Source: a virus
IMG/VR virus record: IMGVR_UViG_3300028844_005083
Span: 1 to 48,033 of that record
Direction: 5' to 3' (one strand)
Length of the DNA stretch: 48,033 bases
The notes beneath the pieces are model-generated. The model saw nothing but the letters and a program-made list of their open reading frames with translations, had not been told where the DNA came from and searched no databases. Of the stretch, positions 7,187 through 43,445 are shown piece after piece (the first letter of the stretch is position 1; each line of letters opens with the position of its first letter). The translations under genes and the position numbers were made by a program.

Positions 7187-7197
7187 CTCTTCTCCGA

Positions 7198-9171: not shown

Positions 9172-9176
9172 TTATA

Positions 9177-11225: not shown

Positions 11226-11228
11226 TTA

Positions 11229-14171: not shown

Positions 14172-14190
14172 GTATACCTCCCCATGGCTC

Positions 14191-14198
14191 TATTTATA
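14191..14198 (-). promoter_or_regulatory. T4-type late promoter box
   Basis: TATAAATA on the minus strand, 20 bases before the ATG of the GAF-like gene, with the strong ribosome site GGGGAGG in the short leader. It would drive the GAF-like protein, gp25 and gp6 as a late transcript. Confidence 0.75.
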
Positions 14199-15081: not shown

Positions 15082-15083
15082 GT

Positions 15084-16785: not shown

Positions 16786-16795
16786 TGAGCTTCTC

Positions 16796-17752
16796 CTATA
16801 AAGCTGTTAAGTTCAAAAATAGCTGTACCTTGTCCACATCGCCAGAATTACCGTGGACAAAGGGATATATCCACTCCCCAGCGGCTAATGTAGACCCAGC
16901 ACTGTTACCGTTATTGCCCAAACTATGGTAGTATGTTAGCCCAGCACCACCCAAAAATGTTAGGATGTCTACGTCTGACCCTCCTGAACTTCCTATTTCT
17001 AAAGTCACCCCAGATGTGGCACCGACAGAACCTACGGGACCTGTTAAACCTTTGACCTTTTTCACGCAAAGCTCGATTCTCTTATCGGACCCAGATAGAC
17101 CGCTCTGAATATAGGCTGCCGCGTTGGATACAAAATATCCAGATGACATTTGTCGGAGGGCATCTAGTTTATCACCAGTACCCAGAGGAGAACCGCTTCC
17201 ATCTAGGATGAACCCGATGGACAATGTACCACCCCCTCCAGCCTCCCCGTCGGCTCCAGTAGCACCAGTCGCTCCAGTGACACCAGATGTACCAGTAGCA
17301 CCAGTCGCTCCAGTCACACCAGCAGGTCCAGTCGCTCCAGTGACACCAGATGTGCCAGTAGCACCAGTAGGTCCAATCCCTCCAGTAGGGACACTGATAG
17401 TAATGCCACCGCTACCAGAGGTTATAGAGACATTTTCTCCAGCGAGAAAGACAACGTCACCAGTCAAGTTATTGATGGTCTCAACATTGTTGATGTCGAT
17501 CCCTCTTCTTAGATCAGAAGTACCTGAAGGTCCAGGTTTCTGGGCAACATCAGTACCTAAATTAACAGAACCTTTTCTCCCTCTAAGAATAATGGCTATT
17601 TCATCAAGGTTATCACCGAACAATATGGTCTCTTCACTGGTCAACTGCCTAGTAGAAGACTTAGATACAACCACAGTATCACCAGAAAGGACCAGTTTGA
17701 CCCCAGCCTTTTCTAGGAAGTTTACTAAAGTTTGTGCAGTTGTGTTGCTCAT
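16796..17752 (-). CDS. Collagen-like fibre protein
   Basis: A 318-residue protein. Residues about 1-120 form a non-repetitive N-terminal part (LVNFLEKAGVKLVLSGDTVV). Then about 17 Gly-X-Y triplets follow (GPTGATGTSGVTGATGPAGV and on), a collagen-like triple helix, at about residues 125-172. A Gly-rich linker leads to a C-terminal beta-rich head of roughly 140 residues. This is the usual plan of phage collagen-like fibres, which trimerise and display a receptor-binding or decorating head. It lies two bases from gp5, which is an uncommon position. The GXT triplets are Thr- and Ala-rich rather than Pro-rich. Confidence 0.75.
   Translation of the reverse strand: MSNTTAQTLVNFLEKAGVKLVLSGDTVVVSKSSTRQLTSEETILFGDNLDEIAIILRGRKGSVNLGTDVAQKPGPSGTSDLRRGIDINNVETINNLTGDVVFLAGENVSITSGSGGITISVPTGGIGPTGATGTSGVTGATGPAGVTGATGATGTSGVTGATGATGADGEAGGGGTLSIGFILDGSGSPLGTGDKLDALRQMSSGYFVSNAAAYIQSGLSGSDKRIELCVKKVKGLTGPVGSVGATSGVTLEIGSSGGSDVDILTFLGGAGLTYYHSLGNNGNSAGSTLAAGEWIYPFVHGNSGDVDKVQLFLNLTAL
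17248..17385. repeat. DNA repeats encoding the collagen-like region
   Basis: Short repeats of 9-, 18- and 63-base period on the minus strand encode Gly-X-Thr triplets. The longest near-identical unit starts gctccagtgacaccagatgt at 17271 and recurs at 17334 with one difference over about 35 bases. These repeats allow triplet gain or loss by recombination. Confidence 0.7.
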
Positions 17753-17753
17753 A

Positions 17754-18677
17754 TTAGTTCAGCAAAATGGTAGAGGCGTTCTGCCTGATACTGCTAGTAT
17801 CTACTGAAATAGTACTAGACCCGTTTCCACCACTTATATTTACACTCCCCGATGCCTTAATTTCTATATTTCCGTCTGATTCTATGTTCTGTGTAGACTC
17901 GGACTTTATGGTTGAACTGCCCTTAGTCAAGATAGAAGAGTCTCCATCCACCGTGATGTTACAGCTACCTTTAACATGTACATTATGGTCAGATACAAAT
18001 ATTTCGTGAGAAGTACCTTTAACTTTCCTAACCATCGAACCATCTGGGTGGATCTCGACGAAGGTACCCGACTTATGGTATATGTGGATTCTCTCAGACC
18101 CATCGGTGTCATCTATCTCAATGATATGACCAGATTCCGACTGTTTAACCTTGTTGAAAGGATATGCGGCATTATAAGGCGTTTCTGGTTCTTTGACAGA
18201 GCCTCCGCCTCCTGCACCACCAGCGGTGTCCATCTCGTCCAAATCGTCCTTTTTGGTCTGAACTATGGTCTCATCTATTTTCTCATTTCTGGCGAGTCTG
18301 TTGGTATCCGCTTCTCCAGTTATGCCAGGATAGACACCGTCGGGGTCAGAAAATCCAAGATTTACGTTTGGTCCAGATTGGGGGATTCCACCCAGAGTGC
18401 CAATGAACACAGGCTGCTGACACGACTGACCATCCCTGAAAAATCCAAAGACCCATGTGCCGTTGACTAGACCTAGGGGAGAGTCGCCTATCCCGTCCAC
18501 CGACGCGGAGGTTACAGGTCCCATCGGGTGCGCCCAGGGTAGATCTGAGGTGGGCAGCACCTGCTTGTCTGGAGTATGATAACCCAGGCATCTTACCCTA
18601 CACCTACCCAGTTTAAGAGGATCATTGCGATCCTCTACTACTCCTTGGAACCATTTTAAATCTGGTGTATCAATCAT
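17754..18677 (-). CDS. 5: Baseplate central spike/hub protein gp5, without a lysozyme domain
   Basis: A 307-residue protein. Residues about 8-100 match the OB-fold of T4 gp5: LKWFQGVVEDRNDPLKLGRC and RVRCLGYHTP, then LPTSDLPWAHPMGPVTSASV, DGIGDSPLGLVNGTWVFGFF. The C-terminal ~100 residues (HEIFVSDHNVHVKGSCNITV, GSSTIKSESTQNIESDGNIE) are strand repeats of a needle-like triple beta-helix. T4 gp5 (575 residues) has a lysozyme domain between these parts. It is absent here and replaced by a charged linker (KKDDLDEMDTAGGAGGGG), as in many marine relatives. Peptidoglycan must therefore be opened by another protein. It overlaps the gp27-like gene by four bases. Confidence 0.88.
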   Translation of the reverse strand: MIDTPDLKWFQGVVEDRNDPLKLGRCRVRCLGYHTPDKQVLPTSDLPWAHPMGPVTSASVDGIGDSPLGLVNGTWVFGFFRDGQSCQQPVFIGTLGGIPQSGPNVNLGFSDPDGVYPGITGEADTNRLARNEKIDETIVQTKKDDLDEMDTAGGAGGGGSVKEPETPYNAAYPFNKVKQSESGHIIEIDDTDGSERIHIYHKSGTFVEIHPDGSMVRKVKGTSHEIFVSDHNVHVKGSCNITVDGDSSILTKGSSTIKSESTQNIESDGNIEIKASGSVNISGGNGSSTISVDTSSIRQNASTILLN

Positions 18678-20011
18678 GCGAATAGCGACGAGTCTGGTCT
18701 TTCGTCTTCCTTACTGCTTCCTAAGAATGTCTTTTCATCTGGTGGTTGGACAGGCAAAGAATCCCTGCTCAGCTCCACCATATTCGTGTATTCTTTTCCA
18801 CTGGTATTTAGTATGCCGTGTCTGATACTAGTGATAAGATATCTGCCGCTTCCATACTTGTCGAACCAGTCTGGGTCATTGCTCTTTTTAGGTTCATTAG
18901 AAGGTAGGCTAAGACCAACCACCATCCCAGCACGTAGGGTGGAATCCCCAGCTACAGTAATTAAGATGGAGTTTCCCCTCCAACTCATCCGATTAGAGAG
19001 GGATTTAAGGTATTCAGACTCATACTCTGAGTTATCGAAATCTTGCCCATAAGCCTGCTCTTGTCTGGTCAAAAGAACAGTTTTGCCGTCACCTATGCCA
19101 GTATACCTAGACTTAAAAGGTAGCTCTCTGTTAGACTCAACATGGTTCGATTTGTCGAAGTCCAACTGATGGTTATAGTTCAGAATTTTAATCGATTTAG
19201 TAGTAAGATCATGGCTCATCAATCTTGAAGACATCATCGAGCTTCTTAGGTCTGATTCGGTATCGAAATCTTCTTTGATCTGGATATCTTGTATTTTTAG
19301 GAACTCGCGACGGATCTTATCAGTTCCGTCGTCGATGGAACTGAGTTTGGAGTGATACTCCTTCATGGTCTGACCATTAGACAGCCTGCCTACACTAGCG
19401 AACACCAAAGACCCCAACGTCTCAAAGAGGATGTAGTTAGAATCATGGGGTCCCTGTGCAGAAACCGCTTTGGTGGACAAAAATCTGATAGCATCAAGGG
19501 GTCTGAGGTTAGGGATCACGAACTTGTAGTTGCCTCTAGTCTCTTCCGCCTCTACGTTCACTTCAGGTAAGTATTCCTTGGCGATTTGAACCACCATGTC
19601 AGATATCTTACCCTCGTATGCCCTGCTAACACGCCTAGACTCATTGTAAAAATGATTCCTCGACCTTAATCCCAGTTCATAGATCTCGGACCTATCATCC
19701 AACTTCTTGGTTCTGCCAGTCATCGACATCACATCTAGCCTGGTGGTGATCAACTTGGATCCAATGCCAGGAGTCTTGAACGAGATCTCCACCGATTCTG
19801 TCCCCAGTAGGGGAAGGTGAGTTCTGAAACCAATAGCATCCACCACCTTCATCTGTCCTTTGAGAATAGGACTGGTCAGATCTTCATATAGATCTACATG
19901 CATGACCAGGTTGCTGATGTCTACAGAACCACCTTGTTCTGATTTCAGTATGATCTTTTCTACTGAAACGTCGTTGATCTTATTATAACTGTCTGGATCT
20001 GGTGAAGACAC
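18674..20011 (-). CDS. Baseplate hub protein, gp27-like
   Basis: A 445-residue protein. The opening (VEKIILKSEQGGSVDISNLV then MHVDLYEDLTSPILKGQMKV) and later EYLPEVNVEAEETRGNYKFV and LRPLDAIRFLSTKA are typical of the gp27/VgrG-type hub fold. This protein forms a trimeric torus linking the tail tube to the gp5 spike. T4 gp27 has 391 residues. Its position directly upstream of and overlapping gp5 supports the assignment, since gp5 and gp27 form one complex. I assign the hub role from the N-terminal pattern and the partner gene, not from an alignment to T4 gp27. Confidence 0.7.
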   Translation of the reverse strand: MSSPDPDSYNKINDVSVEKIILKSEQGGSVDISNLVMHVDLYEDLTSPILKGQMKVVDAIGFRTHLPLLGTESVEISFKTPGIGSKLITTRLDVMSMTGRTKKLDDRSEIYELGLRSRNHFYNESRRVSRAYEGKISDMVVQIAKEYLPEVNVEAEETRGNYKFVIPNLRPLDAIRFLSTKAVSAQGPHDSNYILFETLGSLVFASVGRLSNGQTMKEYHSKLSSIDDGTDKIRREFLKIQDIQIKEDFDTESDLRSSMMSSRLMSHDLTTKSIKILNYNHQLDFDKSNHVESNRELPFKSRYTGIGDGKTVLLTRQEQAYGQDFDNSEYESEYLKSLSNRMSWRGNSILITVAGDSTLRAGMVVGLSLPSNEPKKSNDPDWFDKYGSGRYLITSIRHGILNTSGKEYTNMVELSRDSLPVQPPDEKTFLGSSKEDERPDSSLFA

Positions 20012-20016
20012 TTATA

Positions 20017-20961
20017 TCATCTCCCCATTAATTTTTCGAAGTCTTGAATCACTTTTTGCACGTACTCTGGTCTGACTAGTTTGATGGTCCTATTCGTCTC
20101 ATTCTCTAGATCTTCATGGTCGAAATTAGTCTTAACGTAAGTGCTGGAATCGTTGACGATATATCCGTACAACAGTGTTGCCGTAAAACCACAGACTGCC
20201 TCGTAGAAATCAAAGGCTGGAGAATCTGGTCCAGAAATTCCACCAGTATTTCCAATGATTGCCTGCTGTCCAGTACTTCCCTGAGGCGCACTACCTAGAG
20301 GATTAAGAATGGTACCATCTACTGGGTTCTGGAATTTGTTCAGAGCACTGATGGATTGAGATACCTTTCTGCTAATCCTAGCAGACATATTATATGTGGA
20401 TCCATCAGCACTGGTACCAATAGCAACGATGTAATCACCACTAGAGAAACCATCCCCAGTAACATGGGTGACTTCAAGCCTGGAGTAAGTTTTATCCCAC
20501 TTCCTCACCAAGGCTGCGGACCCAGCATTATATGGGAAAGGGTTAGTGGTCGGACCGATACCAGACCCACTAACTCCCATAATAGTATCGTTTCTAACTG
20601 GATTAAATTCTTCGGGCAATGCGTCTTCGGTGGACCAGTCTGTCAGAAAATACGTTTCGCCTCTGTACTTATTGAAGGCATAAGACTCCAGATTCCTCTG
20701 AGACAATGCCCAGTCATAGTAAGGATTGGTCACATCGTTGAACAACATGATCATCCAGTGTAGCTCGGAATCGCCATATATTTTCTCTGCAACTATGTCT
20801 GGAGTATCCCCGTCTCTGAGTTGATACTCAACAAACATCTCCCCATTTTCTTTGATGTATTCTCTGAACTTTACCCTTTTTACAATGTCAACAGCAGATT
20901 TGGTAGTATCGCCATTGTCAAAAGAGTAGTTTACCTTGGGGAATTTACTAAAATAAGACAT
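20017..20961 (-). CDS. 53: Baseplate wedge protein gp53
   Basis: A 314-residue protein, longer than T4 gp53 (196). The N-terminal ~105 residues match the family: YFSKFPKVNYSFDNG, KRVKFREYIKEN, the LysM-like stretch YQLRDGDTPDIVAEKIYGDS then ELHWMIMLFNDVTNPYYDWA, and SYAFNKYRG. gp53 joins gp6, gp25 and the hub, clamping wedges into the ring. The extra C-terminal part (about 110-314) ends with ENETNRTIKLVRPEYVQKVI, which resembles the usual gp53 C-terminus, so the additional length is a large Gly/Ser-rich insertion in the middle. It sits between gp48 and the gp27-like gene. Confidence 0.88.
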   Translation of the reverse strand: MSYFSKFPKVNYSFDNGDTTKSAVDIVKRVKFREYIKENGEMFVEYQLRDGDTPDIVAEKIYGDSELHWMIMLFNDVTNPYYDWALSQRNLESYAFNKYRGETYFLTDWSTEDALPEEFNPVRNDTIMGVSGSGIGPTTNPFPYNAGSAALVRKWDKTYSRLEVTHVTGDGFSSGDYIVAIGTSADGSTYNMSARISRKVSQSISALNKFQNPVDGTILNPLGSAPQGSTGQQAIIGNTGGISGPDSPAFDFYEAVCGFTATLLYGYIVNDSSTYVKTNFDHEDLENETNRTIKLVRPEYVQKVIQDFEKLMGR

Positions 20962-20963
20962 GT

Positions 20964-22151
20964 TCAGTAACCAATCTTAATCTTGTTACGGTTAATGGAC
21001 TCTAACTCAGTAAATTGGAGGGTCATACTTACCGCTGTGGGTGCTCCGTCTGGGAACATAGACAGCCTATCTAGTGGGGTATAGTTCACCGACACGTTGG
21101 TCAACGCGGTTCTTCCTATTTTGTTAATCCACTGGTTCTCTTTGGCGACTGTCCCAGAGTATTCAGCACCCAAGAAAGATCCGATCTGTTGAAGGGGGTT
21201 CAATGATGGATATTCGATATCAATAAAAGAGATCTGGAATTCAGAGGGCATGTTATAAAATGCCTGGTTATTAGAGACCTCAGGGTGTGCATGGAATCTG
21301 AACAACTTGATGATTTCCATCACATCATGGGATTCCTTTTTGGATCTGGGGAAGAAGTTGAAGGCGAACTCGAAGGTTCTATACTCCACATCATTGAATA
21401 ACTGCTCTTTCCTCGGATTCTTGACGGCACCAGTCACCGCATTCAGAGCAGCCTCGGAGTTGAGTCCTCCACCAGCTATCTCAGATAGCGAGTCGGCAAA
21501 TCCTGCAGCCTTCGCTGCCAAACCTGGTACTAGTGCACCAATTTCTGCATCCAGGATTCCCTTAATTAACCCGAAGTCTTGGTCCGAATATGTCAAGGAA
21601 TCTGTGTTCTGGAGTCCGACAGGCATGTAGAGTGTCACTTTATCTAGTGATTTTTCCGTTGCTTTCCCCAGCCTGGTATCCTCGCTGACATTATCCACCT
21701 CTAACTGCTCCCTCTTTTGTGCAGACTCGTCATTCGGAGTCCCAATGCCAGATAGAAGGTTACCAGCATTTGACAGAGGATTACCACCGCTGAATATTTG
21801 CCCAACACCAGACGAAATATCCTCTCCTAGACCAGATATGGCATCCTTAGCACTGCTGAAGATGTCTTTGGTCGAGTTGGTAACGTCTTCCATTTTAGCG
21901 GGTTTTTTGTAAAAAACATCAAAATGGACTAAATTACCCTTCGTGGGGTTGTTATGGATATCCTCTGGATAAACCAATACTGTGGGTGTGTCACCCTTCA
22001 GGTTATTGAGGTTACCTGAGTTCTGGAACGCATTAAAGAACGTAGCATCACCAGCTCCATTGATAAAATTTTCTACCTGGGAATTGGCAGATCCTGCTGG
22101 GTTATCAATGGGACCGATTGCGCCCGATGTGTTCTGGAAAGATTCTGGCAT
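20964..22151 (-). CDS. 48: Baseplate tail-tube junction protein gp48
   Basis: A 395-residue protein (T4 gp48 is 364). Family features are a KVTLYMPVGLQNTDSLTYSD motif near residue 170, a long Ala/Gly-rich helix, then VEYRTFEFAFNFFPRSKKES with a following EIIKLFRFHAHPE stretch, and a final beta region with VSVNYTPLDRLSMFPDGAPT. gp48 caps the hub and, with gp54, starts tail-tube growth. It is the first gene of the minus-strand tail operon, 20 bases from a perfect late promoter box, with GGGAGG before the ATG. Confidence 0.82.
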   Translation of the reverse strand: MPESFQNTSGAIGPIDNPAGSANSQVENFINGAGDATFFNAFQNSGNLNNLKGDTPTVLVYPEDIHNNPTKGNLVHFDVFYKKPAKMEDVTNSTKDIFSSAKDAISGLGEDISSGVGQIFSGGNPLSNAGNLLSGIGTPNDESAQKREQLEVDNVSEDTRLGKATEKSLDKVTLYMPVGLQNTDSLTYSDQDFGLIKGILDAEIGALVPGLAAKAAGFADSLSEIAGGGLNSEAALNAVTGAVKNPRKEQLFNDVEYRTFEFAFNFFPRSKKESHDVMEIIKLFRFHAHPEVSNNQAFYNMPSEFQISFIDIEYPSLNPLQQIGSFLGAEYSGTVAKENQWINKIGRTALTNVSVNYTPLDRLSMFPDGAPTAVSMTLQFTELESINRNKIKIGY

Positions 22152-22170
22152 GTAGACCTCCCTGTTCTAC

Positions 22171-22184
22171 TATTTATATAAATA
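22171..22184. promoter_or_regulatory. Two overlapping divergent late promoters
   Basis: The 14-base string TATTTATATAAATA contains TATAAATA on the minus strand (22171-22178) and on the plus strand (22177-22184), sharing two bases. It lies between gp48 (minus) and gp4 (plus). The minus transcript would have a ~14-base leader with GGGAGG. The plus transcript would begin almost at the gp4 ATG. Confidence 0.85.
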
Positions 22185-22191
22185 AAAAGCC

Positions 22192-22653
22192 ATGTCTTAT
22201 AAAGGTAAGTACAAACCCAAAAAGCCCGAGAAATATCTGGGTGACCCTTCTAAAGTGACCTACAGGTCTCTATGGGAGAGGAAGTTCATGGTTTATTGTG
22301 ATGAGAACGATTCTATATTGTCCTGGGGGTCAGAAGAGGTTATTGTACCATATCGGTCTCCAAAAGACAACAAGATGCACCGATACTTCGTGGATTTTAT
22401 CGTTGAGATGGTAAGGAAAGACGGTATAAAAGAGGTCACTCTGATTGAGATAAAACCAAAGAAACAATGTCTAGAGCCTGAGAGAAAGACCAAGACCAAA
22501 AGACGATACCTCACTGAGGTGATGACCTATGGGATCAACCAGGCTAAATGGAAAGCGGCTACAGACTTCGCAGAAAATAGAGGCTGGACGTTCAGGGTCA
22601 TGACCGAAGACGATCTATTCAAGGGGAAGAAGAAAAATGCCAAAAGACGTTGA
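22192..22653 (+). CDS. 4: Head completion protein gp4
   Basis: A 153-residue protein that matches T4 gp4 (150) along most of its length: YKGKYKPKKPEKYLGDPS, VTYRSLWERKFMVYCDEN, WGSEEVIVPYRSP, HRYFVDFIVEM, TLIEIKPKKQ and AENRGWTFRVMTEDDL. gp4 is needed to finish filled heads before tail joining. Its E...D...EIKPK pattern resembles a nuclease fold. The ATG is only seven bases after the TATAAATA box and has no ribosome-binding sequence, so the late transcript is almost leaderless. The gene overlaps the next by 17 bases. Confidence 0.92.
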   Translation: MSYKGKYKPKKPEKYLGDPSKVTYRSLWERKFMVYCDENDSILSWGSEEVIVPYRSPKDNKMHRYFVDFIVEMVRKDGIKEVTLIEIKPKKQCLEPERKTKTKRRYLTEVMTYGINQAKWKAATDFAENRGWTFRVMTEDDLFKGKKKNAKRR

Positions 22654-23236
22654 TCCTTTAGAAGAAATAGATGATCTATCTAAATTCTTCGGTATTGATA
22701 GTAAAGAAAAGAGTTCCCTTGCGTGGTTCAGAAAAAACATGCAGTATATCTATGGGTCTGTAGGTGCAGATGCGGCAATGGATGGGTCAAAAGGAAAAAT
22801 CAAAGAGGATGGTCGACCTGGTAAACTGTATATGTTCAGATACAGTCCCAAAACCAAGAAGAAGCTGCCTTATTATGATGCATTCCCGATGGCTGTTCTT
22901 CTAACACCACCCAAAAAAGAAATGATGGGTATAAACCTGCATTATCTACCCCCAAAATATAGGGAGATATTTTTCTCTAGTCTCTTGGCAATAAACTCAG
23001 ACAATAGTCTGAGCGATAGTGCTAGATTCAAGGTGTCTTACGATATACTCAAGGGGTCATCCAAGTTCAGATTCTTCAAACCATGTATCAAGAAATATCT
23101 TATGAGCAAGGTAAGATCAGAGATGGTGATCATACCACCGAAATACTGGAATATTGCGGTTAATCTTCCCACAGAGGCTTTCGTCAAGCAGAAAAAGCAG
23201 GCTGTGTGGAAAGAAAGCATAAATAAAATAAGATAG
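22637..23236 (+). CDS. Probable DNA end protector, gp2-like
   Basis: A 199-residue protein. The central pattern GRPGKLYMFRYSPKTKKKLP, YYDAFPMAVLL and then GINLHYLPPKYREIFF resembles proteins in T4-type phages that are usually labelled DNA end protector (gp2), which binds packaged DNA ends and blocks RecBCD. In T4, gene 2 lies next to gene 4, matching this order. The protein is basic and has no membrane segment. The ribosome site AAGGGG is within gp4. I rely on a remembered motif and gene order, so the gp2 name is moderate. Confidence 0.55.
   Translation: MPKDVDPLEEIDDLSKFFGIDSKEKSSLAWFRKNMQYIYGSVGADAAMDGSKGKIKEDGRPGKLYMFRYSPKTKKKLPYYDAFPMAVLLTPPKKEMMGINLHYLPPKYREIFFSSLLAINSDNSLSDSARFKVSYDILKGSSKFRFFKPCIKKYLMSKVRSEMVIIPPKYWNIAVNLPTEAFVKQKKQAVWKESINKIR
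23218..23225 (+). promoter_or_regulatory. Possible late promoter (CATAAATA)
   Basis: CATAAATA, one base from the T4 late consensus, near the end of the gp2-like gene. The predicted start is ~16 bases before the ATG at 23247, with AGGGGA in between. Spacing is right but the box is not exact. Confidence 0.4.
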
Positions 23237-23246
23237 GGGAACTTTC

Positions 23247-23999
23247 ATGCCAAGAATAGACAGAATGGTTGCCAACGTCAGAAAATTCGGGGTGTTTACC
23301 CCGAATAGATACCTGATCGAGTTCTCAGGACTCGTAGGTGCTTTCGATTTATTCATGGGTAACAGATTGAGTCTCATGTGCAACAGGATAAACGTTCCTG
23401 GGAGAGGTGTTGCATCTTCGCCAGACTCTAATGCTTTGGGTCCTTCATCCGAGATCCCATATGCGCCTCTGTATGAGAACGAGTTAGAGATCGAGTTCTA
23501 CCTCGCCAAAGACATGTGGGAAAGACGGACATTCGAGTCTTGGATGGACACTATTGTGGATCCAGCAAGCGGTAGAATGGCGTACTTTAAGGATTATGCC
23601 TGCGATGCATACATCTACATTTTGAACGAATTCGATTTTCCGCTTTATCGCATCAGACTAGAAGAAGTCTGGCCTAAGCAGGTGGGTGCTATCGAATTGT
23701 CTAACGAAGGGGGGTCGGAGGTCGCCAGACAGTCGATCACCCTGAACTTCTCTAGATACATACCCACCATCGTGACCACTGGTGGTGCGGTAGCAGAAGA
23801 GTTCTTATACGATATCCCGTCTGTCAGGAAATTCGACACCAATACTGGTGGCCTGATGAACGATCTGGGTATCTTTGGTGGTAAATTTGGTAACCCCTTA
23901 AATTATTCCCAGACTTTCCAATCATGGGCAGATGCGGGTGCAATTGTTGAGAAACCTTTACAGAATTTTAACCTTGGTGGAATTGGAACTATCATCTGA
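23247..23999 (+). CDS. Tail-tube-like protein, probable tube initiator gp54
   Basis: A 250-residue protein with the tail-tube fold pattern. An N-terminal FGVFTPNRYLIEFSG strand is followed by LSLMCNRINVPGRG, YENELEIEFYLAKDMWERRT, FESWMDTIVDP, MAYFKDYACDAYIYILNEFD and EEVWPKQVGAIELS with SITLNFSRYIP. These are features of gp19/gp54 proteins: T4 gp19 (163 residues) builds the tube, and gp54 (320) starts it on gp48. The length lies between the two. As the neighbours are hub genes (gp26, tape measure) rather than the sheath gene gp18, gp54 fits better than gp19. The C-terminal ~60 residues are Gly/Asn-rich. Confidence 0.6.
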   Translation: MPRIDRMVANVRKFGVFTPNRYLIEFSGLVGAFDLFMGNRLSLMCNRINVPGRGVASSPDSNALGPSSEIPYAPLYENELEIEFYLAKDMWERRTFESWMDTIVDPASGRMAYFKDYACDAYIYILNEFDFPLYRIRLEEVWPKQVGAIELSNEGGSEVARQSITLNFSRYIPTIVTTGGAVAEEFLYDIPSVRKFDTNTGGLMNDLGIFGGKFGNPLNYSQTFQSWADAGAIVEKPLQNFNLGGIGTII

Positions 24000-24015
24000 T
24001 ATGGAGATTTGATTT

Positions 24016-24705
24016 ATGGCTTTACCAGTCGTTAAGACCCCAACGTATGAACTAGTCATACCCAGCACGGGGCAAAAAGTGACATACCGACCTTTTTTGG
24101 TCAAAGAAGAGAAGATTTTAATGGTGGCGGCTGAGTCTGAAGATAGAAAAGAAATCAGCAGTGCCATGAAGCAGATTGTCAGCAGTTGCGTAGAAGATAA
24201 AATAGATGTGGACAGTCTAGCGACATTCGATCTGGAATACATTTTTGTGAACCTAAGGTCCAGATCCGTGGGAGAGACCGTTGATATCACGGTTAAATGT
24301 GAGTTCTGTGGTGAAGAGAACAAGGCAAGGATCGATTTCAGCAATGTGGAGGTTACCAAGCAGGGTAAAGGAAGCAACAAGGTAGAAATCACTGAGTCCA
24401 TGGGGATTATGATGAAGTACCCAGGAATCGACGATGTATCTGCCATTGAGAAAGCGGACCCAGTCGGTGTCATCAAGGGTTGTATTGATTACATTTATGA
24501 TGAGAAGCAGGTGTACAAAGCATCAGAAGCATCAGATTCCGAGTTAGACGATTTTGTAAACAGTCTCGGGTACAAAGAGATGGAAAAGATCAAGCAGTTT
24601 TTTGATGGGATGCCCAAGATCGTTAAGAAGGTTAAGTTTACTTGCAGCTCTTGCAAGAAGAAGAACACTATGAACATTGAAGGATTCGACAATTTTTTCG
24701 TCTGA
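24016..24705 (+). CDS. 26: Baseplate hub assembly protein gp26 (tail chaperone, short form)
   Basis: A 229-residue protein. It opens with TPTYELVIPSTGQKVTYRPF then LVKEEKILMVAAES, as in the gp26 family of marine T4-type phages. It has two Cys pairs, CEFCGEEN near residue 96 and CSSCKKKN near 215, which could bind zinc. In T4, gp26 and gp51 are hub assembly factors. The last codons before the stop contain the run T TTT TTC (24693-24699), and a conserved sequence continues in the -1 frame, so a longer product is likely. The gene is followed by the tape-measure gene, the same order as chaperone then tape measure in other long-tailed phages. GGAG precedes the ATG. Confidence 0.82.
   Translation: MALPVVKTPTYELVIPSTGQKVTYRPFLVKEEKILMVAAESEDRKEISSAMKQIVSSCVEDKIDVDSLATFDLEYIFVNLRSRSVGETVDITVKCEFCGEENKARIDFSNVEVTKQGKGSNKVEITESMGIMMKYPGIDDVSAIEKADPVGVIKGCIDYIYDEKQVYKASEASDSELDDFVNSLGYKEMEKIKQFFDGMPKIVKKVKFTCSSCKKKNTMNIEGFDNFFV
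24693..24699 (+). promoter_or_regulatory. -1 ribosomal frameshift slippery heptamer
   Basis: T TTT TTC in the gp26 frame, four codons before its stop at 24703. After slipping to TTT TTT the ribosome enters the -1 frame, which is open to 24887. U UUU UUC is a classical slippery sequence of the X XXY YYZ type. Confidence 0.7.
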
Positions 24706-26427: not shown

Positions 26428-27339
26428 TCAAGATTCGTCCGCTAGCTTCTGAAAGTAAGATAGCGCGTCATCTTCGCCGCTTTCGGATCCTCCCGTCTTT
26501 TCCTCCTCCACCTTGGTCTTAGGAGCAGCGAACTGCTCCTTTCTGACTTGGGCAACGGTGTTGTCGAGATCCGCTGCAGACTCGGCAATGTCACCACCTC
26601 TGGCACCACCACCCAGAACGATCTCAAGTCGCTTCTTAAGCTCCTCGTAAGACTTGAACTGGTCTGGGGCAATGAACTCCTGCAGCTTGTACTGCTGACC
26701 CCAGATCTTCTCGAGAACTTCATCATCCTCATTAAGAGCAGTGGGACTAGCAAACTCACTCTTGTCGTAGTTGGTGAAACCAGCGACCTTTCGGATCTTC
26801 AACTTGAAGTTAGCACCCTTCCAGAAATCGAACGGGTTTACCGCTTCCTCGTCTGAGAACTCGGGCTGGAGAGACTCCATCACCTTGTCGAAGATCTTCT
26901 TGCCGAACTTGTAGAGGAAGACCTTGCCTTCGTTCGACGGGTTCTTGGGGTCCTCAACCACCATAATGTTCGAGATGTATTGGAGGCGTCGCTTACGACT
27001 TCGGGCGATGTCCTTGTCCGACTCGTCCCCGCTGTTCCAAAGCTCGCTGTTCGCCTCGCACAGAGGACACTTCAAACCGATGGTGGTGGGACAGTTCTCG
27101 ATAAACCATCCCCCACGACCCTTGAAACCGTGATTGAAGATCCGAACCCAAGGGGTGTCTTCACCCTCTACTGGTGGAAGGAATCGAATCACGGCATACC
27201 CGTTGTCAGACTTGTCGACTTCAGGCTTCCAGAAACGATCGTCCTTGTAATTGGTCTTCTCGTTCTTCTGGATCTTGTTCAGTTCGTCCATGATGGAATC
27301 CATCTTGCCCGCACTCTTCTTCATCTTGCTAAAACTCAT
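26428..27339 (-). CDS. 32: Single-stranded DNA-binding protein gp32
   Basis: A 303-residue protein (T4 gp32 is 301). The N-terminal basic region (SKMKKSAGKMDSIMDELNKI) mediates cooperative binding. The OB-fold core contains the zinc site as NHGFKGRGG then ENCPTTIGLKCPLCEAN, giving His-Cys-Cys-Cys as in T4. The C-terminus is acidic (ESGEDDALSYFQKLADES), the tail that contacts replication partners. I chose the ATG at 27339, which has GGAGAC eight bases upstream and starts with the conserved MSFSKMKKS; an in-frame ATG at 27420 would place the promoter inside the gene. gp32 protects ssDNA during replication, repair and recombination and usually controls its own translation. Confidence 0.95.
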   Translation of the reverse strand: MSFSKMKKSAGKMDSIMDELNKIQKNEKTNYKDDRFWKPEVDKSDNGYAVIRFLPPVEGEDTPWVRIFNHGFKGRGGWFIENCPTTIGLKCPLCEANSELWNSGDESDKDIARSRKRRLQYISNIMVVEDPKNPSNEGKVFLYKFGKKIFDKVMESLQPEFSDEEAVNPFDFWKGANFKLKIRKVAGFTNYDKSEFASPTALNEDDEVLEKIWGQQYKLQEFIAPDQFKSYEELKKRLEIVLGGGARGGDIAESAADLDNTVAQVRKEQFAAPKTKVEEEKTGGSESGEDDALSYFQKLADES

Positions 27340-27391
27340 GCTGTCTCCTTTGTATTGTATGTGACAGATTTTAGTGTGTGTGATCTTGTTT

Positions 27392-27420
27392 ATTATATCA
27401 GGTAGGCTGGTTACAGTCAA
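27392..27420 (-). promoter_or_regulatory. Sigma-70 promoter of gp32
   Basis: On the minus strand, TTGACT (27420-27415) and TATAAT (27397-27392) are 17 bp apart, with TG-A before the -10 (extended -10). The start point is near 27385, giving a ~45-base leader for gp32. It overlaps the 3' end of the gp33-like gene. Confidence 0.85.
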
Positions 27421-27638
27421 GAGAACGGCAGTTCCGCCTCGGCTGGCAGGAGGTTGATATCCTGGCCTTCTCTCTTGATCTTCTCTTTGATGGGGGTGCT
27501 AATCAGCCTGGCACCCATGAAAGGTTCGATCTTGGCCTCGTCGCAGACATGTAAGACGGCGTCGATATAACTTTCATATACTCCAGTCTTCACTAGGTCT
27601 TCTACCTTTAGGCAAAAGGCTTTTTCATCTTCTATCAT
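27417..27638 (-). CDS. 33: Late transcription co-activator, gp33-like
   Basis: A 73-residue protein (T4 gp33 is 112). The pattern FCLKVEDLVKTGVYESYIDA, VLHVCDEAKIEP, then ARLISTPIKEKIKREGQDIN and LLP corresponds to the short gp33 homologues of marine T4-type phages. gp33 bridges host RNA polymerase and the gp45 clamp to activate late promoters. Its place just upstream of gene 32 matches the T4 neighbourhood 33-59-32, without gene 59. Late promoter boxes elsewhere here require this function. The ribosome site GGAG precedes the ATG. Confidence 0.7.
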   Translation of the reverse strand: MIEDEKAFCLKVEDLVKTGVYESYIDAVLHVCDEAKIEPFMGARLISTPIKEKIKREGQDINLLPAEAELPFS

Positions 27639-28470: not shown

Positions 28471-29922
28471 ATGGCAAGAGCACGCCACAGGTTAACCGCC
28501 CTTAGACAAGCGGTGATCAACGAACCTAAAACGCCCCCCACCACTAAGGAATATACGGTAGATGCCCGTATAGATCACGATACCTATACCCATCATGTGG
28601 GTGGAATAGATGCCAACAGTGGTAGGGGTTTTGACGTAGGTCTAGGTGGAGCAACTGGTCATACTGGGTCTACATCTGCCTCCTACTACATGGCTTCTGG
28701 GATTCAAAAGACGGGTACGGGTCCCAACTTCACCACTTGGCAGCCCCCATACCAAAGAGAAATGTTAGAAATAGGCGCGTGGTTGCCCAATGACTTCGTC
28801 ACTTTGGATGGCGGTAATACTCCTAAGTGGAAGTATGAGTTCAACGGTAGAGACTACAGTAACTCTACTACGGGGGGCATGACCTATGACGGTTCTCTGG
28901 GTGGAAGAGCACAAAGAGCATACTTCTTAATCGATCTCAACCTGGCCTCTAATCGACAGATCGGGAGCGGTACGGCCCCGATACCAGCATCAGGTGATAC
29001 TGTATCTTCAGCACAATTGTGCCTTACCCTGAATGCTATCATGTTCCACGATAGTAATAATTTCAGTGATGTGTTATTCCCCAACTTCAGTAGTACATAC
29101 AATGTTGATTCCAATAATATCATTGCAGGGTCTTCTTTTGACGATGGTGGTACTTATTGTGCCTATAAGGTGGTTAGAGGGTTCACATCTACTGGTGAAT
29201 TAGGAGATTTGAACTGGTTGGGTTGGTCTGGAGGAATAGCATCCTCCAACGCGGAATCAGATTACTGGATAGTAGCGGGTGGTAGTAGTTATTCTGCCGC
29301 TGGTAATACTGGGGACATTTCAGACCTGGGGGTATCTTCCTGTTATCGTTTTGGAGATGGAGATTTCGGGGGAAGTGTTCCCAGAGGATTTCCTCCAATC
29401 ACTAGTGACGTAGGTAAGATCTTTGGGGACCCGAATATGGAGGTCATTGCCAGAGAAGAACTTGATGTCCAGACTCCTGGCGATCTAGAAGAAGACGAAT
29501 CCGATCCCCCAATTGATGATCCAGATGATCCAGGTGACGGTGGAGATCCTACCGAAGACGATAGTAGAGAGATTTGTTTTGATGTTACCCATATCATCCA
29601 AGATGCCATAGATAACGAGAGCAACATTGTTAGGATTGCAATCTATAGAGACGATGACGGTGGTTATGAAGCAGTCCCCACAGCGGATACCACATACCAA
29701 CCGTCCGACCCCACCTATACTCCCCCAGGGGGTGCCGCTGGAGACGTTGCTAGTCTAACCAATGTTTATGATCAGTCTCAGGACGATACAAGTACACCAT
29801 CTGACAATGGCCGAGTACTGTTCCATGACCAATTTAGGCATGCCATACGGGTGCACAGTTCTAACTCGACCACTGCTAATTTCAGACCCAAGCTGACCTA
29901 TACGTTCACTGACAGGACCTGA
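28471..29922 (+). CDS. Probable virion adhesin-like protein with DNRLRE-type features
   Basis: A 483-residue protein starting at ATG 28471, directly after the upstream stop; an ATG at 28459 would overlap that gene. After a basic N-terminus (ARARHRLTALRQAV) come beta-rich stretches, such as LGGRAQRAYFLIDLNLASNR and SGDTVSSAQLCLTLNAIMFH. An Asp/Pro-rich linker (DPPIDDPDDPGDGGDPTEDD) follows, then CFDVTHIIQDAIDNESNIVR, and finally HSSNSTTANFRPKLTYTFTD. The strand order and the final RPKLTYTF resemble DNRLRE-type jelly-roll domains of surface proteins, split by the acidic linker. A fibre or head-surface adhesin is likely. This is pattern recognition without an alignment. Its 3' end overlaps the converging nuclease gene by 17 bases. 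Confidence 0.5.
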   Translation: MARARHRLTALRQAVINEPKTPPTTKEYTVDARIDHDTYTHHVGGIDANSGRGFDVGLGGATGHTGSTSASYYMASGIQKTGTGPNFTTWQPPYQREMLEIGAWLPNDFVTLDGGNTPKWKYEFNGRDYSNSTTGGMTYDGSLGGRAQRAYFLIDLNLASNRQIGSGTAPIPASGDTVSSAQLCLTLNAIMFHDSNNFSDVLFPNFSSTYNVDSNNIIAGSSFDDGGTYCAYKVVRGFTSTGELGDLNWLGWSGGIASSNAESDYWIVAGGSSYSAAGNTGDISDLGVSSCYRFGDGDFGGSVPRGFPPITSDVGKIFGDPNMEVIAREELDVQTPGDLEEDESDPPIDDPDDPGDGGDPTEDDSREICFDVTHIIQDAIDNESNIVRIAIYRDDDGGYEAVPTADTTYQPSDPTYTPPGGAAGDVASLTNVYDQSQDDTSTPSDNGRVLFHDQFRHAIRVHSSNSTTANFRPKLTYTFTDRT

Positions 29923-30550
29923 GATAATTGTCGATTTTGTTTTTTAGGGGAACCACATAATTACGGGGGTCTTCCAAGTATTCTTGGATATCTCCATACC
30001 CTGTGGTTATGAGAATGGCAATCTGAGAGATCTTTTCACCCGTCAACTGATGCCACATGATTGCATAGGCAGTGGTCTGACAGAAATAATCCTCGACTTG
30101 ATCTTTACTCTTTAACCTTTTACTGGTTTTAAAGTCGATGATCGATGGGACTCCATTATAACAACCCACGCAATCCACCCGCCCAGCTAGACCAAGAAGA
30201 TGACTGTATAATGGGACTTCTTGTGCTCGGATATCAGTGATATTGTGTAACAGACTTTTCAGATTGGTGAACTGCTCGTAGGCTCTGAAGTTATCCCTTT
30301 CTACCTCTTTGTTATTAAGGTAGTCCTCTACCATCTCATGCACTTTGGTACCATTGGCAAGGATCCGCTTGCTCTCTTCTGCGTTCTTCTCTCTCCACTC
30401 CTTGAAGAACTCTCTCTTTTCCCACCCAACCACCGTAGTGACACTGGGATAATCTTTCCCATCAGGGGTACTATAGAACCGAGATCCGTCCTTTTGGGTG
30501 ACGGATCTCAGTTCCTCTAAACCAGATACTGGGGTGTGGATAAAGTTCAT
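29906..30550 (-). CDS. PD-(D/E)XK exonuclease (RecB/Cas4-like)
   Basis: A 214-residue protein. It has a DGKDYPSVTTVVG N-terminus, then RILANGTKVHEMVEDYLN, followed by the nuclease core: QEVPLYSHLLGLAGRVDCVG (with the GRVD Asp), VPSIIDFKTSKRLKSKDQVE (D-x-K of the catalytic site) and YFCQTTAYAIMW (the Q...Y motif of RecB-like exonucleases). No Fe-S Cys cluster of the Cas4 type is seen. Such enzymes resect DNA ends in recombination or degrade host DNA. It overlaps the kinase gene by four bases, so nuclease, kinase and PurZ-like enzyme form one operon; a salvage role for its nucleotides is possible but inferred. Confidence 0.75.
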   Translation of the reverse strand: MNFIHTPVSGLEELRSVTQKDGSRFYSTPDGKDYPSVTTVVGWEKREFFKEWREKNAEESKRILANGTKVHEMVEDYLNNKEVERDNFRAYEQFTNLKSLLHNITDIRAQEVPLYSHLLGLAGRVDCVGCYNGVPSIIDFKTSKRLKSKDQVEDYFCQTTAYAIMWHQLTGEKISQIAILITTGYGDIQEYLEDPRNYVVPLKNKIDNYLRSCQ

Positions 30551-31104
30551 AATGTTCTTTGCAGTATGAAATTACCATCTTCTTGGTCATACCACTTCAG
30601 ATTATACTTCACCTCATGCTTATCCATAGACTCTTTCAAGATACCGATGGTGGTGATATTTCCTTCTAGATCGGATCTGGACTGCTTGATCCTTTCCATC
30701 TGATATTCATCGACAGACCCGTTACGACCAGTGATCCGACTGATCTGCTCCTTCTCATCAATGTACAAAAAATGCACATTGACTTCTACACTCATCTTAT
30801 GGGAGAAATCCGTAAGATATCGATGGGCCACCATTAGCTGCTTGCTATTCCTTGGCATTCCATCGGTCACTAAAGGGACATCATAGTCTCTAGCGACTTT
30901 GCAGCAGTGCTTGAACATGGAATAGACTAGCGGATTTGCAAAAGACCAGACATTTTTCTCTGATTGCTTGTTCTTCATGCAACTGAAAGTACCCCTAAGG
31001 ATCTCCCCCACATTAAAAAGTATGTTCTCCTCTTTAGGGAACATAGCAGAGATGAAAGTCGACTTGCCACTGCCAGCTTGTCCGAGCACGTAGTGTAAAA
31101 TCAT
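30547..31104 (-). CDS. Adenylate-kinase-like nucleoside monophosphate kinase
   Basis: A 185-residue protein. It has Walker A GQAGSGKST at residues 8-16, FNVGEILR near 30 (NMP-binding start) and DGMPRNSKQL near 85, which corresponds to the DGFPR motif of adenylate kinases. A lid-like stretch ISRITGRNGSVDE follows near 125. There is no zinc lid. Adenylate kinases transfer phosphate between ATP and AMP or dAMP. The gene is coupled by ATGA to the PurZ-like gene, which would make a 2-aminoadenine nucleotide precursor, so a role in phosphorylating dZMP is an attractive inference. Substrate cannot be read from sequence. Confidence 0.75.
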   Translation of the reverse strand: MILHYVLGQAGSGKSTFISAMFPKEENILFNVGEILRGTFSCMKNKQSEKNVWSFANPLVYSMFKHCCKVARDYDVPLVTDGMPRNSKQLMVAHRYLTDFSHKMSVEVNVHFLYIDEKEQISRITGRNGSVDEYQMERIKQSRSDLEGNITTIGILKESMDKHEVKYNLKWYDQEDGNFILQRTL

Positions 31105-32174
31105 GAAGCGAAAAGTTCCTTCTGTCCACTGAGAATCTGATCAGAAGAGGTCTCCACCATGTCCTCAAGATCAGCACCCGTACCGAGAAGGCGAAGATCA
31201 CAACCTTGCTCCTTGAGGAGTCCCGCAACCTTGGAAATGAACCCGCTTCTCTCTTCATGATCCTGATAATAATTCACGAAGTTCAAGAATGCGTAGTCTG
31301 GTCGGACGTATCGACAGAACTTGCGGGTCTGGGCTGGGGAGAAGGTGAAGACTCGGCGAACCCGCTGGGTAACAGTGGTCTTCTCTTCAACTGGATAACC
31401 GCACTTCTCGGAAATATAACCCCAATCAAGCTCCTGCTGATCGTCGTAGTACGGTCCACTGGTGTTATCAGTACTTCCGACTCTGATGGGGTAGGTCCTG
31501 AGCGAGGCAATGATGCTTCCAACATCCTTAACCGAGCAACCAGCATTATCCATCATTCTACCGATCAGACAGTCTCGCGAGGTCACGTGCGGGTAGGCAT
31601 GACCGCAGTTAAGAGAGAGATCGAAACCTTGACTTCCCTCACTGAGAACAGACTTGCCCTGCTCAAGGCTCTTCTGCAGCATCTGATGGGTGTCTGCAAC
31701 ATGAGTCTCAAGGAACTTGCTGTCGCGAGCAAGATTCGCCTCTCCCTTTCGCCACATCTTCTTGGTGGTAGCGGAGCAAGAACCCTGACCAGTAGATGCC
31801 ATTTCACTGACGATCTGCTGCTCATTCACCTTGTCTCCACCAGTCACAATACATGCTAGAGGATGAATGTAAACGTTAGGGTAATGCCCCAACTCGTTCT
31901 TGATCATCTCCATTTCGTACTGGAACTGTTCTTCACCGAGAACCGCCTGGGGACCGATCAAACTGGTCATCCCATCGAACAAGCAACTGGTGGGAAGAGC
32001 CTTAAGAATGAAATCCTTACCGTCCTTGGTGAACGTGTGTCCAGCATTGGGCATGTTGTCACTGATACCAATATCAATGTCGCCCTTTGAATAAAGGTAG
32101 CCTGCAAGCTTACCCTTACCCGTGCTGCCCCACTGTCCGTCAATCAAAAAATTCACCTTGCCTTTTTGGATCAT
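31101..32174 (-). CDS. purZ: PurZ-like adenylosuccinate synthetase homologue
   Basis: A 357-residue protein, shorter than bacterial PurA (~430). Aligned by eye to E. coli PurA: DGQWGSTGKGKLAGYL matches GTQWGDEGKGK, with the catalytic Asp13 replaced by Ser and Glu14 by Thr. NAGHT retains the acid His. STGQGSCSATTKK replaces the GTTGRGIGPAY loop. SEGSQGFDLSLNCGHAYPHV matches the EGAQG.LLD...YPYV stretch, YPIRVG matches YSTRVG, and LLGTGADLEDM matches the C-terminal STGPDRTET. GS.GKG is the signature of PurZ, which joins aspartate to dGMP on the route to 2-aminoadenine (Z) DNA. The KLD motif that reads guanine of GTP is FVNYY here, also fitting PurZ enzymes that use ATP/dATP. DatZ, MazZ and DpoZ are not in this window, so a Z genome is unproven. 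GGAGGA precedes the ATG. Confidence 0.82.
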   Translation of the reverse strand: MIQKGKVNFLIDGQWGSTGKGKLAGYLYSKGDIDIGISDNMPNAGHTFTKDGKDFILKALPTSCLFDGMTSLIGPQAVLGEEQFQYEMEMIKNELGHYPNVYIHPLACIVTGGDKVNEQQIVSEMASTGQGSCSATTKKMWRKGEANLARDSKFLETHVADTHQMLQKSLEQGKSVLSEGSQGFDLSLNCGHAYPHVTSRDCLIGRMMDNAGCSVKDVGSIIASLRTYPIRVGSTDNTSGPYYDDQQELDWGYISEKCGYPVEEKTTVTQRVRRVFTFSPAQTRKFCRYVRPDYAFLNFVNYYQDHEERSGFISKVAGLLKEQGCDLRLLGTGADLEDMVETSSDQILSGQKELFAS

Positions 32175-35412: not shown

Positions 35413-35414
35413 AT

Positions 35415-41933: not shown

Positions 41934-42015
41934 CGTCAAAGACTCCCTTGCAGAGGTAGTAAATTCCTGAAATACAGGCGATTATGATCAAGTATGCTCC
42001 GTAAGAATCAATCAT
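41926..42015 (-). CDS. 29-residue single-pass membrane peptide
   Basis: Starts at ATG 42015 within the stop of the ATPase gene (ATGA) and ends within the start of the YubB-like gene (ATGCCTAA). The product, MIDSYGAYLIIIACISGIYY then LCKGVFDDA, is one membrane helix. The tight overlaps at both ends argue that it is translated. It may help place or regulate a neighbour at the membrane. Confidence 0.5.
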   Translation of the reverse strand: MIDSYGAYLIIIACISGIYYLCKGVFDDA

Positions 42016-43385
42016 TCGCTGATCCAATCCACCTGCCAGCTCTTCTCCCGAATCTGATTTTCCAAGGCATTGTAGGTGGTGATGTCCATCTTCCACTTCT
42101 TGACATCTGCCATCCACTTGACAGCCCCCATGTGCTTGATGTCGTCCTTCTCATCAAAGGGAACCTTGATGGCGACATGAGTGGCACTTTCCTTGGCGAC
42201 CTTCTCCGCCTCATCGCGGGTCTCCTTGTCGAAGTCGGCATCGAGCTTACCATACATCGTCAGGAAGGATTCCTTGGTGGCATCGTCGAATCGGGTGATC
42301 GCCATTTCGATCGCCTTCTTCTGATCCTTGAAGATCGAGTATGCGGTCACGATGTTCGTGAGACGACGAGTCGTGATGATCTCGTCCACGGCGTCCTGGT
42401 AGTAGCACTGTCGGATCATGTCCGCCCAGCTGACCAGAGTCTTTGCGAAAGCATTATCAGAGACTCCAAGACTGTCCATCATCTTCTTGACGATCCGAGT
42501 CTCGACATTCTTCGGAGCGTATGCCTGCTCCAGAGTGACCGAGAATCGGTCAAGGAATGCCTCATTCAGCACGTTCGTACCCACAAACCGACCGTCATCT
42601 GATCCCTTGCCCTTGGTGTTGGCAGTGGCGAAGATCTGGAATCCATCAGCAGGAGCGACCCACTGCCCGATCTTCTTCAAGAAGACACCCTTGCCCTCCA
42701 GCACAGGCTGGAGACACATGATATTATGCGATGCGAGATCCACCTCGTCCAGAAGCAAGATACCACCCTGCTTCATGGCACGGACCACTGGACCATCACA
42801 CCAGACGGTCTCGCCGTTGATGAGACGGAATCCACCGAGGAGATCGTCCTCGTCGGTCTGCTTGGTGATGTTCACTCGGAACATTTCTCGCTTGAGCTTC
42901 GCACATACCTGCTCGATCATGGTGGTCTTGCCATTGCCCGACAGACCAGTCACGAACATGGGATAGAACATGCGGCTCTTCATGATCGTCACGACATCCT
43001 CGAAGTGACCCCATGGGACGTAGGTATCGATCTTGCTCGGAACCAAGGAGTCAGACTCGCCACCAGTCATGCCACGAATCTCGCTCGTCGCAGGAGAGAC
43101 CTTGGGGGTCTCGACAATGGTCTTGACCATTGCCTTCTTTGGGAGACCCGTGGTCTCATGCACGACGGTCGTCGCAGACGAACCCAGTTCGTGGATGATG
43201 TATTCACCGACGTTTTCGGTCCGACGAGTCTGATCCTGAGAGATCCAAGCGGGAGGACAGGCATAGATGCCAGTCGAGAGGCAAAGAGCCTTGATCTCGG
43301 TTCGGGTGACAGGAGAGGTCATGCCAGCATCACGCATCGCTTCAATGAAGGACTCGCGGGCTGCAATCGATTGGGCTGTTGCCAT
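42012..43385 (-). CDS. CobS/MoxR-like AAA+ ATPase with a C-terminal DUF5710-like domain
   Basis: A 457-residue protein from ATG 43385 (GGAG upstream). The AAA+ core has Walker A TGLSGNGKTT, an ITKQTDEDDLLGGFRLINGE insertion, Walker B GGILLLDEVDLAS, sensor 1 IFATANTKGKG, and an Arg-finger region with LNEAFLDRFSVTLE. This is the cobaltochelatase CobS/MoxR group, which many marine T4-type phages carry. The last ~90 residues, including VPFDEKDDIKHMGAVKWMAD then VKKWKM, match DUF5710. The N-terminal region has a helical domain (ESFIEAMRDAGMTSPVTRTE). Without CobT or CobN here, a cobalamin role is doubtful; a remodelling ATPase is more likely. It has the strong promoter of control module copy 2. 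Confidence 0.82.
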   Translation of the reverse strand: MATAQSIAARESFIEAMRDAGMTSPVTRTEIKALCLSTGIYACPPAWISQDQTRRTENVGEYIIHELGSSATTVVHETTGLPKKAMVKTIVETPKVSPATSEIRGMTGGESDSLVPSKIDTYVPWGHFEDVVTIMKSRMFYPMFVTGLSGNGKTTMIEQVCAKLKREMFRVNITKQTDEDDLLGGFRLINGETVWCDGPVVRAMKQGGILLLDEVDLASHNIMCLQPVLEGKGVFLKKIGQWVAPADGFQIFATANTKGKGSDDGRFVGTNVLNEAFLDRFSVTLEQAYAPKNVETRIVKKMMDSLGVSDNAFAKTLVSWADMIRQCYYQDAVDEIITTRRLTNIVTAYSIFKDQKKAIEMAITRFDDATKESFLTMYGKLDADFDKETRDEAEKVAKESATHVAIKVPFDEKDDIKHMGAVKWMADVKKWKMDITTYNALENQIREKSWQVDWISE

Positions 43386-43445
43386 TCTCAATGCTCCAGA
43401 GAGGAGGTATTCGTGGTCGGGACCAATCCCGAATCCTGAACACCC

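Follow-up and report, generated by a model that had tools for sequence, protein, structure and literature searches.

In uncultured T4-like phages, a PurZ-family gene and the adenylate-kinase-fold gene coupled to it point to a candidate variant of Z-nucleotide synthesis

2-Aminoadenine (Z) is a base that replaces adenine in the DNA of some phages. In characterised Z-phages, purZ is paired with an enzyme that removes dATP, and dGMP is supplied in other systems by MazZ. The lyase step that follows PurZ is assigned to the host in the literature, and published accounts of Z-DNA come from siphoviruses and podoviruses with PolA or PrimPol, which rely on host enzymes after PurZ (PMC8599892, PMC8342488, PMC12884076). 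Here, we examined a purZ-like gene on a linear 48 kb fragment, a whole IMG/VR record that is referred to below as the window. It probably encodes the committed enzyme of Z-nucleotide synthesis in an uncultured T4-like lineage, acting with a coupled kinase and with the PurB found in relatives; the substrates and the presence of Z in virion DNA are inferred.

The virus carrying the gene is regarded as T4-like because the window holds a T4-type structural block. The surroundings of purZ are as follows.

2138..24705, strand not assigned: T4-type baseplate, tail and head-completion block (gp6, gp25, gp53, gp48, tail lysozyme, gp4, gp2, tail tube and hub)
26428..27420, minus strand: gp32-like single-stranded DNA-binding protein, for which translation probably begins downstream of the listed TTG
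27417..27638, minus strand: gp33-like late-transcription coactivator, part of the T4 context
29906..30550, minus strand: PD-(D/E)XK exonuclease (phrog_298), overlapping the kinase gene by 4 bp
42012..43391, minus strand: CobS-like AAA ATPase, a marker of the marine T4-like group and the upstream flank of purZ in relatives

The T4-type context given in the preliminary description was thereby upheld, with homologues of gp2, gp4, gp6, gp25, gp32, gp33, gp48 and gp53 in the window and the same gene in near-complete T4-like relatives; the structural set, gp32 and gp33, together with the replisome of the relatives, are those of a T4-like myovirus. Since purZ overlaps the kinase gene and the kinase gene overlaps the exonuclease gene, by 4 bp each, the three genes look translationally coupled. 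The exonuclease is a core gene of the T4-like lineage that shares the apparent purZ-kinase transcription unit and is not itself Z-specific. Promoter-like matches in the window did not exceed their frequency in shuffled sequence. The window also encodes tRNA-Gly(tcc) (38135-38209) and tRNA-Lys(ttt) (39225-39296), both on the minus strand, and its 34625-35518 segment gave a weak match to SprT/DUF6782-like metallopeptidases, about 40% conserved in all three of the large relatives.

The gene itself and its diagnostic motifs map to the following positions.

31101..32174, minus strand: purZ, PurZ-family N6-succino-2-amino-2'-deoxyadenylate synthase of 357 aa, assigned from profiles, tree and residue alignment, with its activity inferred
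32109..32135, minus strand: QWGSTGKGK, residues 14-22, with Ser17 and Thr18 where PurA has the catalytic Asp-Glu
32034..32048, minus strand: NAGHT, residues 43-47, of the dGMP/ATP site, from sequence and alignment
31626..31640, minus strand: EGSQG, residues 179-183, in which Gln182 corresponds to Gln190 of the S-2L dGMP pocket
31272..31283, minus strand: NFVN, residues 298-301, an ATP-type base site replacing the T/K/D residues of PurA

The ORF is intact, and its strand had gone unstated. Each motif read earlier was recovered, namely QWGSTGKGK with Ser and Thr for the Asp and Glu of PurA, the retained NAGHT, EGSQG and GTG.D (here GTGAD, residues 331-335), and FVNYY in place of the KLD of the GTP site, within LNFVNYY at residues 297-303 and with the GTP-site residues in the PurZ state. 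In the alignment, NFVN is equivalent to N305, F306 and Q308 of S-2L PurZ and to N297 of phiVC8 PurZ. The weight placed on the GS.GKG signature had to be reduced: the motif is present, but discrimination between PurZ and PurA needs about nine ligand positions rather than that motif alone. Length, also offered as a PurZ marker, fails on its own, as short archaeal PurA proteins measure 339-340 aa.

The encoded protein matched Pfam PF00709 (E 2.7e-30) and PHROG 1211, 2-aminooxy adenylosuccinate synthetase (E 3.6e-60), and scored 207.8 bits with the NCBIfam PurZ model compared with 153 bits or less with the PurA models. Although this PurZ model (NF038379) ranked first, its curated cut-off of 300 bits was not met, which is consistent with a sister clade to the sequences behind the model. 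The closest solved structure in the PDB was phiVC8 PurZ (E 9e-52). Among 50,697 phage records, the top matches were known Z-phages and their kin, at about 29-37% identity, and the matches listed included no T4-like phage; a scan of genome contigs for cellular PurZ found no relative either. The ORF is kept in 10 other IMG/VR contigs at 72-100% identity.

Ligand-binding residues were next compared in a MAFFT alignment under S-2L PurZ numbering, with the set of residues taken from PMC8342488. The window protein keeps G22, S23, T24, G25, K26, N49, A50, G51, H52, T53, S131, T132, R146, Q190, T205, R240, V241, T273-T276, R280, N305, F306 and G335, and also the Val placed against the ribose 2'-OH. 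At Q308 it has Asn, the same state as phiVC8, while the variable positions G130, Y203, C204, R244 and P336 are occupied by Ala, His, Val, Thr and Ala, respectively. PurZ and E. coli PurA disagree at nine ligand positions (S23, T24, S131, T273, T274, V275, N305, F306 and Q308, where the latter has D, E, T, G, A, T, T, K and D, respectively), and the window protein shows the PurZ state at every one of them. Ser stands at the PurA Asp13 position in every PurZ locus that was fetched, in this case as Ser17 within GSTGKG. The dGMP/ATP site therefore fits the solved PurZ structures, and the Asp13 and GTP-site T/K/D residues that would mark a PurA are lacking.

In an IQ-TREE phylogeny of 51 rows, in which PurA was thinly sampled (3 rows, including 1 partial), PurA was separated from the window protein at 100/99 and a PurZ group of 45 rows was supported at 99/97. 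Within the tree, the PurZ0 clade (Wayne, Ghobes and Sapo) received 100/99 and the characterised Z-cluster PurZ clade (13 rows) 92/78. The window protein fell within a further, new clade (31 rows, 95/85), the sister of the Z-cluster PurZ, so that it does not nest with the phiVC8, S-2L and SH-Ab enzymes; 11 T4-like rows, the window included, formed a single clade at 100/99. It meets neither the GSEAKG motif nor the clade membership of PurZ0. The long rows of contigs G054 and L088 are unsurely placed, and several deep forks of the new clade are weak. Tree, active-site residues and profile ranking all back the assignment to PurZ and not PurA made in the preliminary description, and the alignment and tree against PurA, PurZ and PurZ0 that it proposed put the window outside both PurA and PurZ0. 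Judged from its sequence, the gene is a PurZ-family member of a third clade, beside the Z-cluster PurZ and PurZ0.

The gene directly downstream of purZ encodes a putative nucleotide kinase.

30547..31104, minus strand: adenylate-kinase-fold P-loop kinase of 185 aa, its start overlapping the purZ stop by 4 bp
31057..31083, minus strand: P-loop GQAGSGKST, invariant in 7 aligned homologues
30838..30864, minus strand: NMP-site motif DGMPRNSKQ, residues 81-89, comparable to the adenylate kinase DGFPR..Q

Its P-loop, DGxPR..Q motif and fold are those of the adenylate kinase superfamily. NMP-site residues D, G, P, R, N and Q are invariant in the 7 aligned homologues, and the NCBIfam adenylate kinase model was matched at E 1.8e-7; the full-length curated adk cut-offs were not reached. 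An AF2 model of the protein (pLDDT 88) retrieved adenylate or UMP-CMP kinases as all of its best 50 PDB folds. No match was found in the annotated phage collection. Linkage was counted with an iterated HMM over distinct loci, with near-duplicate contigs merged and only where the sequence is present, and the kinase directly follows purZ in 27 of the 28 loci of the new clade. In the one locus that departs from this (L071/L072), a dGTP_diPhyd_N gene takes the position of the kinase, and in 8 contigs the kinase is fused to, or then followed by, a dUTPase_2-type domain; these enzyme types beside PurZ resemble known dNTP-pool tuners of Z-phages. The kinase also occurs in two classical DatZ clusters, ordered PolA-purZ-kinase-datZ (L084) and kinase-purZ-datZ (L087/L088). 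In 12 contigs searched whole, it was matched only beside purZ, except for one weak match in G041. The clearest clue to a role for the kinase in the product line of PurZ is this linkage, and we propose that the enzyme is a dZMP (or dSMP or dGMP) kinase, with the substrate inferred. Both this kinase and PurB go unmentioned in a 2026 survey of Z-phage nucleotide enzymes (PMC12884076).

Other features of these loci were recorded. In L073-L081, contigs with a long PolA, a kinase-dUTPase_2-type pyrophosphohydrolase, fused or adjoining, follows purZ. A conserved 178-185 aa protein of unknown family lies between the kinase and the exonuclease at G006:28089-28646, with homologues in G004, G005, L053, L055 and L056, and is absent from the subclade of the window. 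Directly upstream of purZ, a 92 kb contig has an RtcB RNA ligase gene (L058:4431-5594) and another a gp32-like single-stranded DNA-binding protein (L071:4747-5949); in other clade members this neighbour is an unknown protein of 270-425 aa.

Three T4-like relatives, G004 (136 kb), G005 (136 kb) and G006 (126 kb), are taken as near complete from their gene order, because the ends of G004 and G005 map to neighbouring sites in the others. Each carries gp43, gp44, gp62, gp45, gp41, gp61 and UvsX, an adenylosuccinate lyase (PurB) gene between gp47 and gp46, and an IMP dehydrogenase domain that lacks CBS domains. PurB scored above the TIGR00928 cut-off in two of the three, and its catalytic His and Ser motifs are retained. 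The ribonucleotide reductase (RNR) of G006 was assigned to class II, and its homologues in G004 and G005 are 77% identical to it. PurB was present in all five PurZ contigs longer than 100 kb (these three, G022 of 262 kb and G041 of 395 kb). No PurB turned up in the 38 shorter PurZ contigs, a set that includes many fragments. The reverse search, from PurB, found a GSSGKG PurZ-like gene in one of 10 further contigs (G054, 341 kb); the remaining nine, all of them shorter, are possibly incomplete. Few phages have PurB at all: it was found in 26 of 50,697 records, none of them T4-like. As G041 and G054 carry gp18, gp20 and gp23 homologues, they look like jumbo myoviruses; the PurZ-like protein of G054 (L117/L118) is very divergent, in a genome that also has PurB and a class II RNR. 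The window, being a 48 kb fragment, showed no PurB, IMP dehydrogenase or RNR gene, only purZ and the kinase, and these enzymes and the polymerase are inferred for its genome from relatives whose PurZ is 72-74% identical.

A type II glutamine synthetase gene lies directly after gp61 in G006 (L031:15271-16344; G006:112771-113844), with homologues in G004 and G005 and 46-50% identical ones in uncultured megaphages of 635-735 kb. A new ligase chemistry was considered for it and rejected in favour of an ordinary type II enzyme, because it also occurs in megaphages in which PurA is canonical or absent. The 735 kb megaphage (L047; LR756501 345353-346090) has such a canonical PurA, reading QYGDEGKGK, a contrast to PurZ. 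Between RegA and gp43, a sugar-nucleotide/glycosyltransferase cluster (G006:91681-105054, covering L030 and L031; G005:12792-26176) includes a dTDP-sugar epimerase, a DegT aminotransferase and a methyltransferase.

The datZ, mazZ and DpoZ genes sought on the suggestion of the preliminary description were not found in the near-complete relatives. No homologues of DatZ, MazG/MazZ, HD_3, DUF5664, PolA or PrimPol were detected in G004, G005 or G006, and the window showed no DatZ or MazG homologue either; in place of a Z-selective PolA (DpoZ) or PrimPol, the relatives have a T4-type gp43 of the PolB family. The textbook Z-cluster is considered absent, since the near-complete relatives encode a T4 B-family replisome and lack DatZ, MazZ, PolA and PrimPol. 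Candidate substitutes were also examined and set aside. Motif B of gp43 is identical to its counterpart in HTVC008M, where no PurZ turned up, so the polymerase shows no Z signature. A dUTPase preceding gp43 keeps the usual motifs, resembles ordinary T4-like phage dUTPases (35% identity to phiM12) and is not, on this evidence, a Z-specific DutZ. A DUF1599-like protein of 115-131 aa before gp43 was weighed as a MazZ substitute; its family match is weak, its AF2 model is poor (pLDDT 65), and it is shared with Melnitz and HTVC008M, neither of which shows a PurZ.

On the best reading of these data, the lineage has a new variant of Z synthesis, dGMP to dSMP to dZMP to dZDP, that would be largely phage-encoded, with all activities and their order inferred. 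PurZ would condense dGMP and Asp, with ATP or dATP, into N6-succino-2-amino-dAMP (dSMP). Adenylosuccinate lyase, either the phage PurB seen in near-complete relatives or that of the host, would convert dSMP to dZMP, the purZ-coupled kinase may raise dZMP to dZDP, and the host NDK may complete dZTP. The IMP dehydrogenase and class II RNR of the relatives would increase the supply of guanine deoxynucleotides, and dGMP itself might come from host-DNA breakdown or from an unrecognised pyrophosphohydrolase, such as the non-Z-specific DUF1599-like protein. The B-family gp43 would then incorporate Z opposite T. Replacement of A by Z would probably be only partial, the safer guess given that no DatZ or Z-selective PolA was found, and use of dATP by PurZ, shown for the S-2L enzyme (PMC8342488), could act as a dATP drain. 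The candidate Z pathway proposed at the outset is thus strengthened by the linked kinase and PurB genes, and left without the datZ, mazZ and DpoZ it predicted.

The absence of DatZ and MazZ from the near-complete relatives and the lack of visible Z adaptation in gp43 leave some room for another use of dZTP, which we consider unlikely without dismissing it: PurZ could make dZTP mainly for nucleotide-pool control, either by drawing down dGMP and dATP or by poisoning the replication of the host, while the phage genome stays essentially adenine DNA as dATP is preferred by the B-family polymerase and is not removed. However, the genes that these phages spend on finishing dZMP (PurB) and on a purZ-linked kinase suggest that dZTP is the wanted product, and the S-2L polymerase, which has no A/Z preference, still makes Z-DNA with the help of DatZ (PMC8342488).

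It is very unlikely that the gene is instead a PurA-like auxiliary metabolic gene that, with PurB and IMP dehydrogenase, boosts host purine (AMP/GMP) synthesis during infection. Both of these partners are present, purine genes are known as phage auxiliary genes, and the glutamine synthetase encoded in these genomes likewise fits a role in nitrogen and purine supply, but Ser replaces the catalytic Asp, the GTP site has the residues of PurZ, the clade lies outside PurA in the tree, and the canonical PurA of the 735 kb megaphage differs in reading QYGDEGKGK. Even less can be said for a final modification other than Z, whether the succino-intermediate or a further derivative, with PurZ and the kinase working on dNMPs before or without PurB. 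The kinase is missing from the Z-DNA survey (PMC12884076) with its substrate unidentified, and no PurB was seen in the window or the smaller contigs of the clade; yet PurB occurs in all PurZ contigs above 100 kb, hosts have PurB, and host enzymes complete phiVC8 dZTP synthesis in vitro (as stated in PMC8342488).

We thus retain Z-nucleotide synthesis as the preferred reading. A larger claim, for which the odds are somewhat short of even, is that T4-like and jumbo myoviruses possess a third, separately assembled Z-DNA system built on a new-clade PurZ, a dedicated dZMP kinase and phage PurB, needing no host lyase or NMP kinase and no dATPase, and copied by a B-family replisome into genomes in which Z either replaces A fully or is mixed with it. 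The lineage has a kinase of its own and, in relatives, the next-step enzyme as well, so that any altered DNA alphabet it makes may need less host help than that of the studied Z-phages. If so, the known range of this alphabet would widen to viruses with a T4 B-family replisome, a compact gene set for dZTP production in cells would be at hand, and the tolerance of B-family polymerases for Z and the existence of mixed A/Z genomes would become testable questions. In the open-access literature searched, what appears new, on sequence evidence, is a further and environmentally diverse PurZ clade associated with this kinase, with a phage lyase in its large members, and with a T4 B-family replisome.

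Phages are known to use their own kinase to raise a modified dNMP, the strategy of the T4 gp1-type dNMP kinase; the kinase of the window has the adenylate kinase fold and motifs. The PurZ0 actinophages (Wayne, Ghobes, Sapo and Keanu) share the Ser substitution with the window protein. In contrast, PurZ0 reads GSEAKG, has T/M/D at the ATP/GTP base site in Wayne and Keanu, lies far from the window protein in the tree, and is not known to neighbour this kinase. PurB-like lyases are annotated in Gordonia phage Sapo (L122:11845-12942) and Streptomyces phage Keanu (L196:9182-10567), with a dUTPase gene nearby, and annotation of such a lyase in phages with PurZ0 is thus not new; PMC12884076 does not discuss these lyases. 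Like the purZ-mazZ-datZ cluster (PMC8342488), the locus has nucleotide genes adjoining purZ, and in L084 the kinase lies between PurZ and DatZ; unlike that cluster, the T4-like lineage has purZ-kinase-exonuclease without mazZ and datZ. With the PurZ enzymes of phiVC8, S-2L and SH-Ab 15497, the window protein shares the fold family, Ser for Asp13, and the ligand residues for dGMP and ATP or dATP, at 29-36% identity. Set against those phages, in its relatives the T4-like virus has PolB, with DatZ, MazZ and PolA partners not found, and it couples purZ to an adenylate-kinase-fold gene, with PurB present in its relatives.
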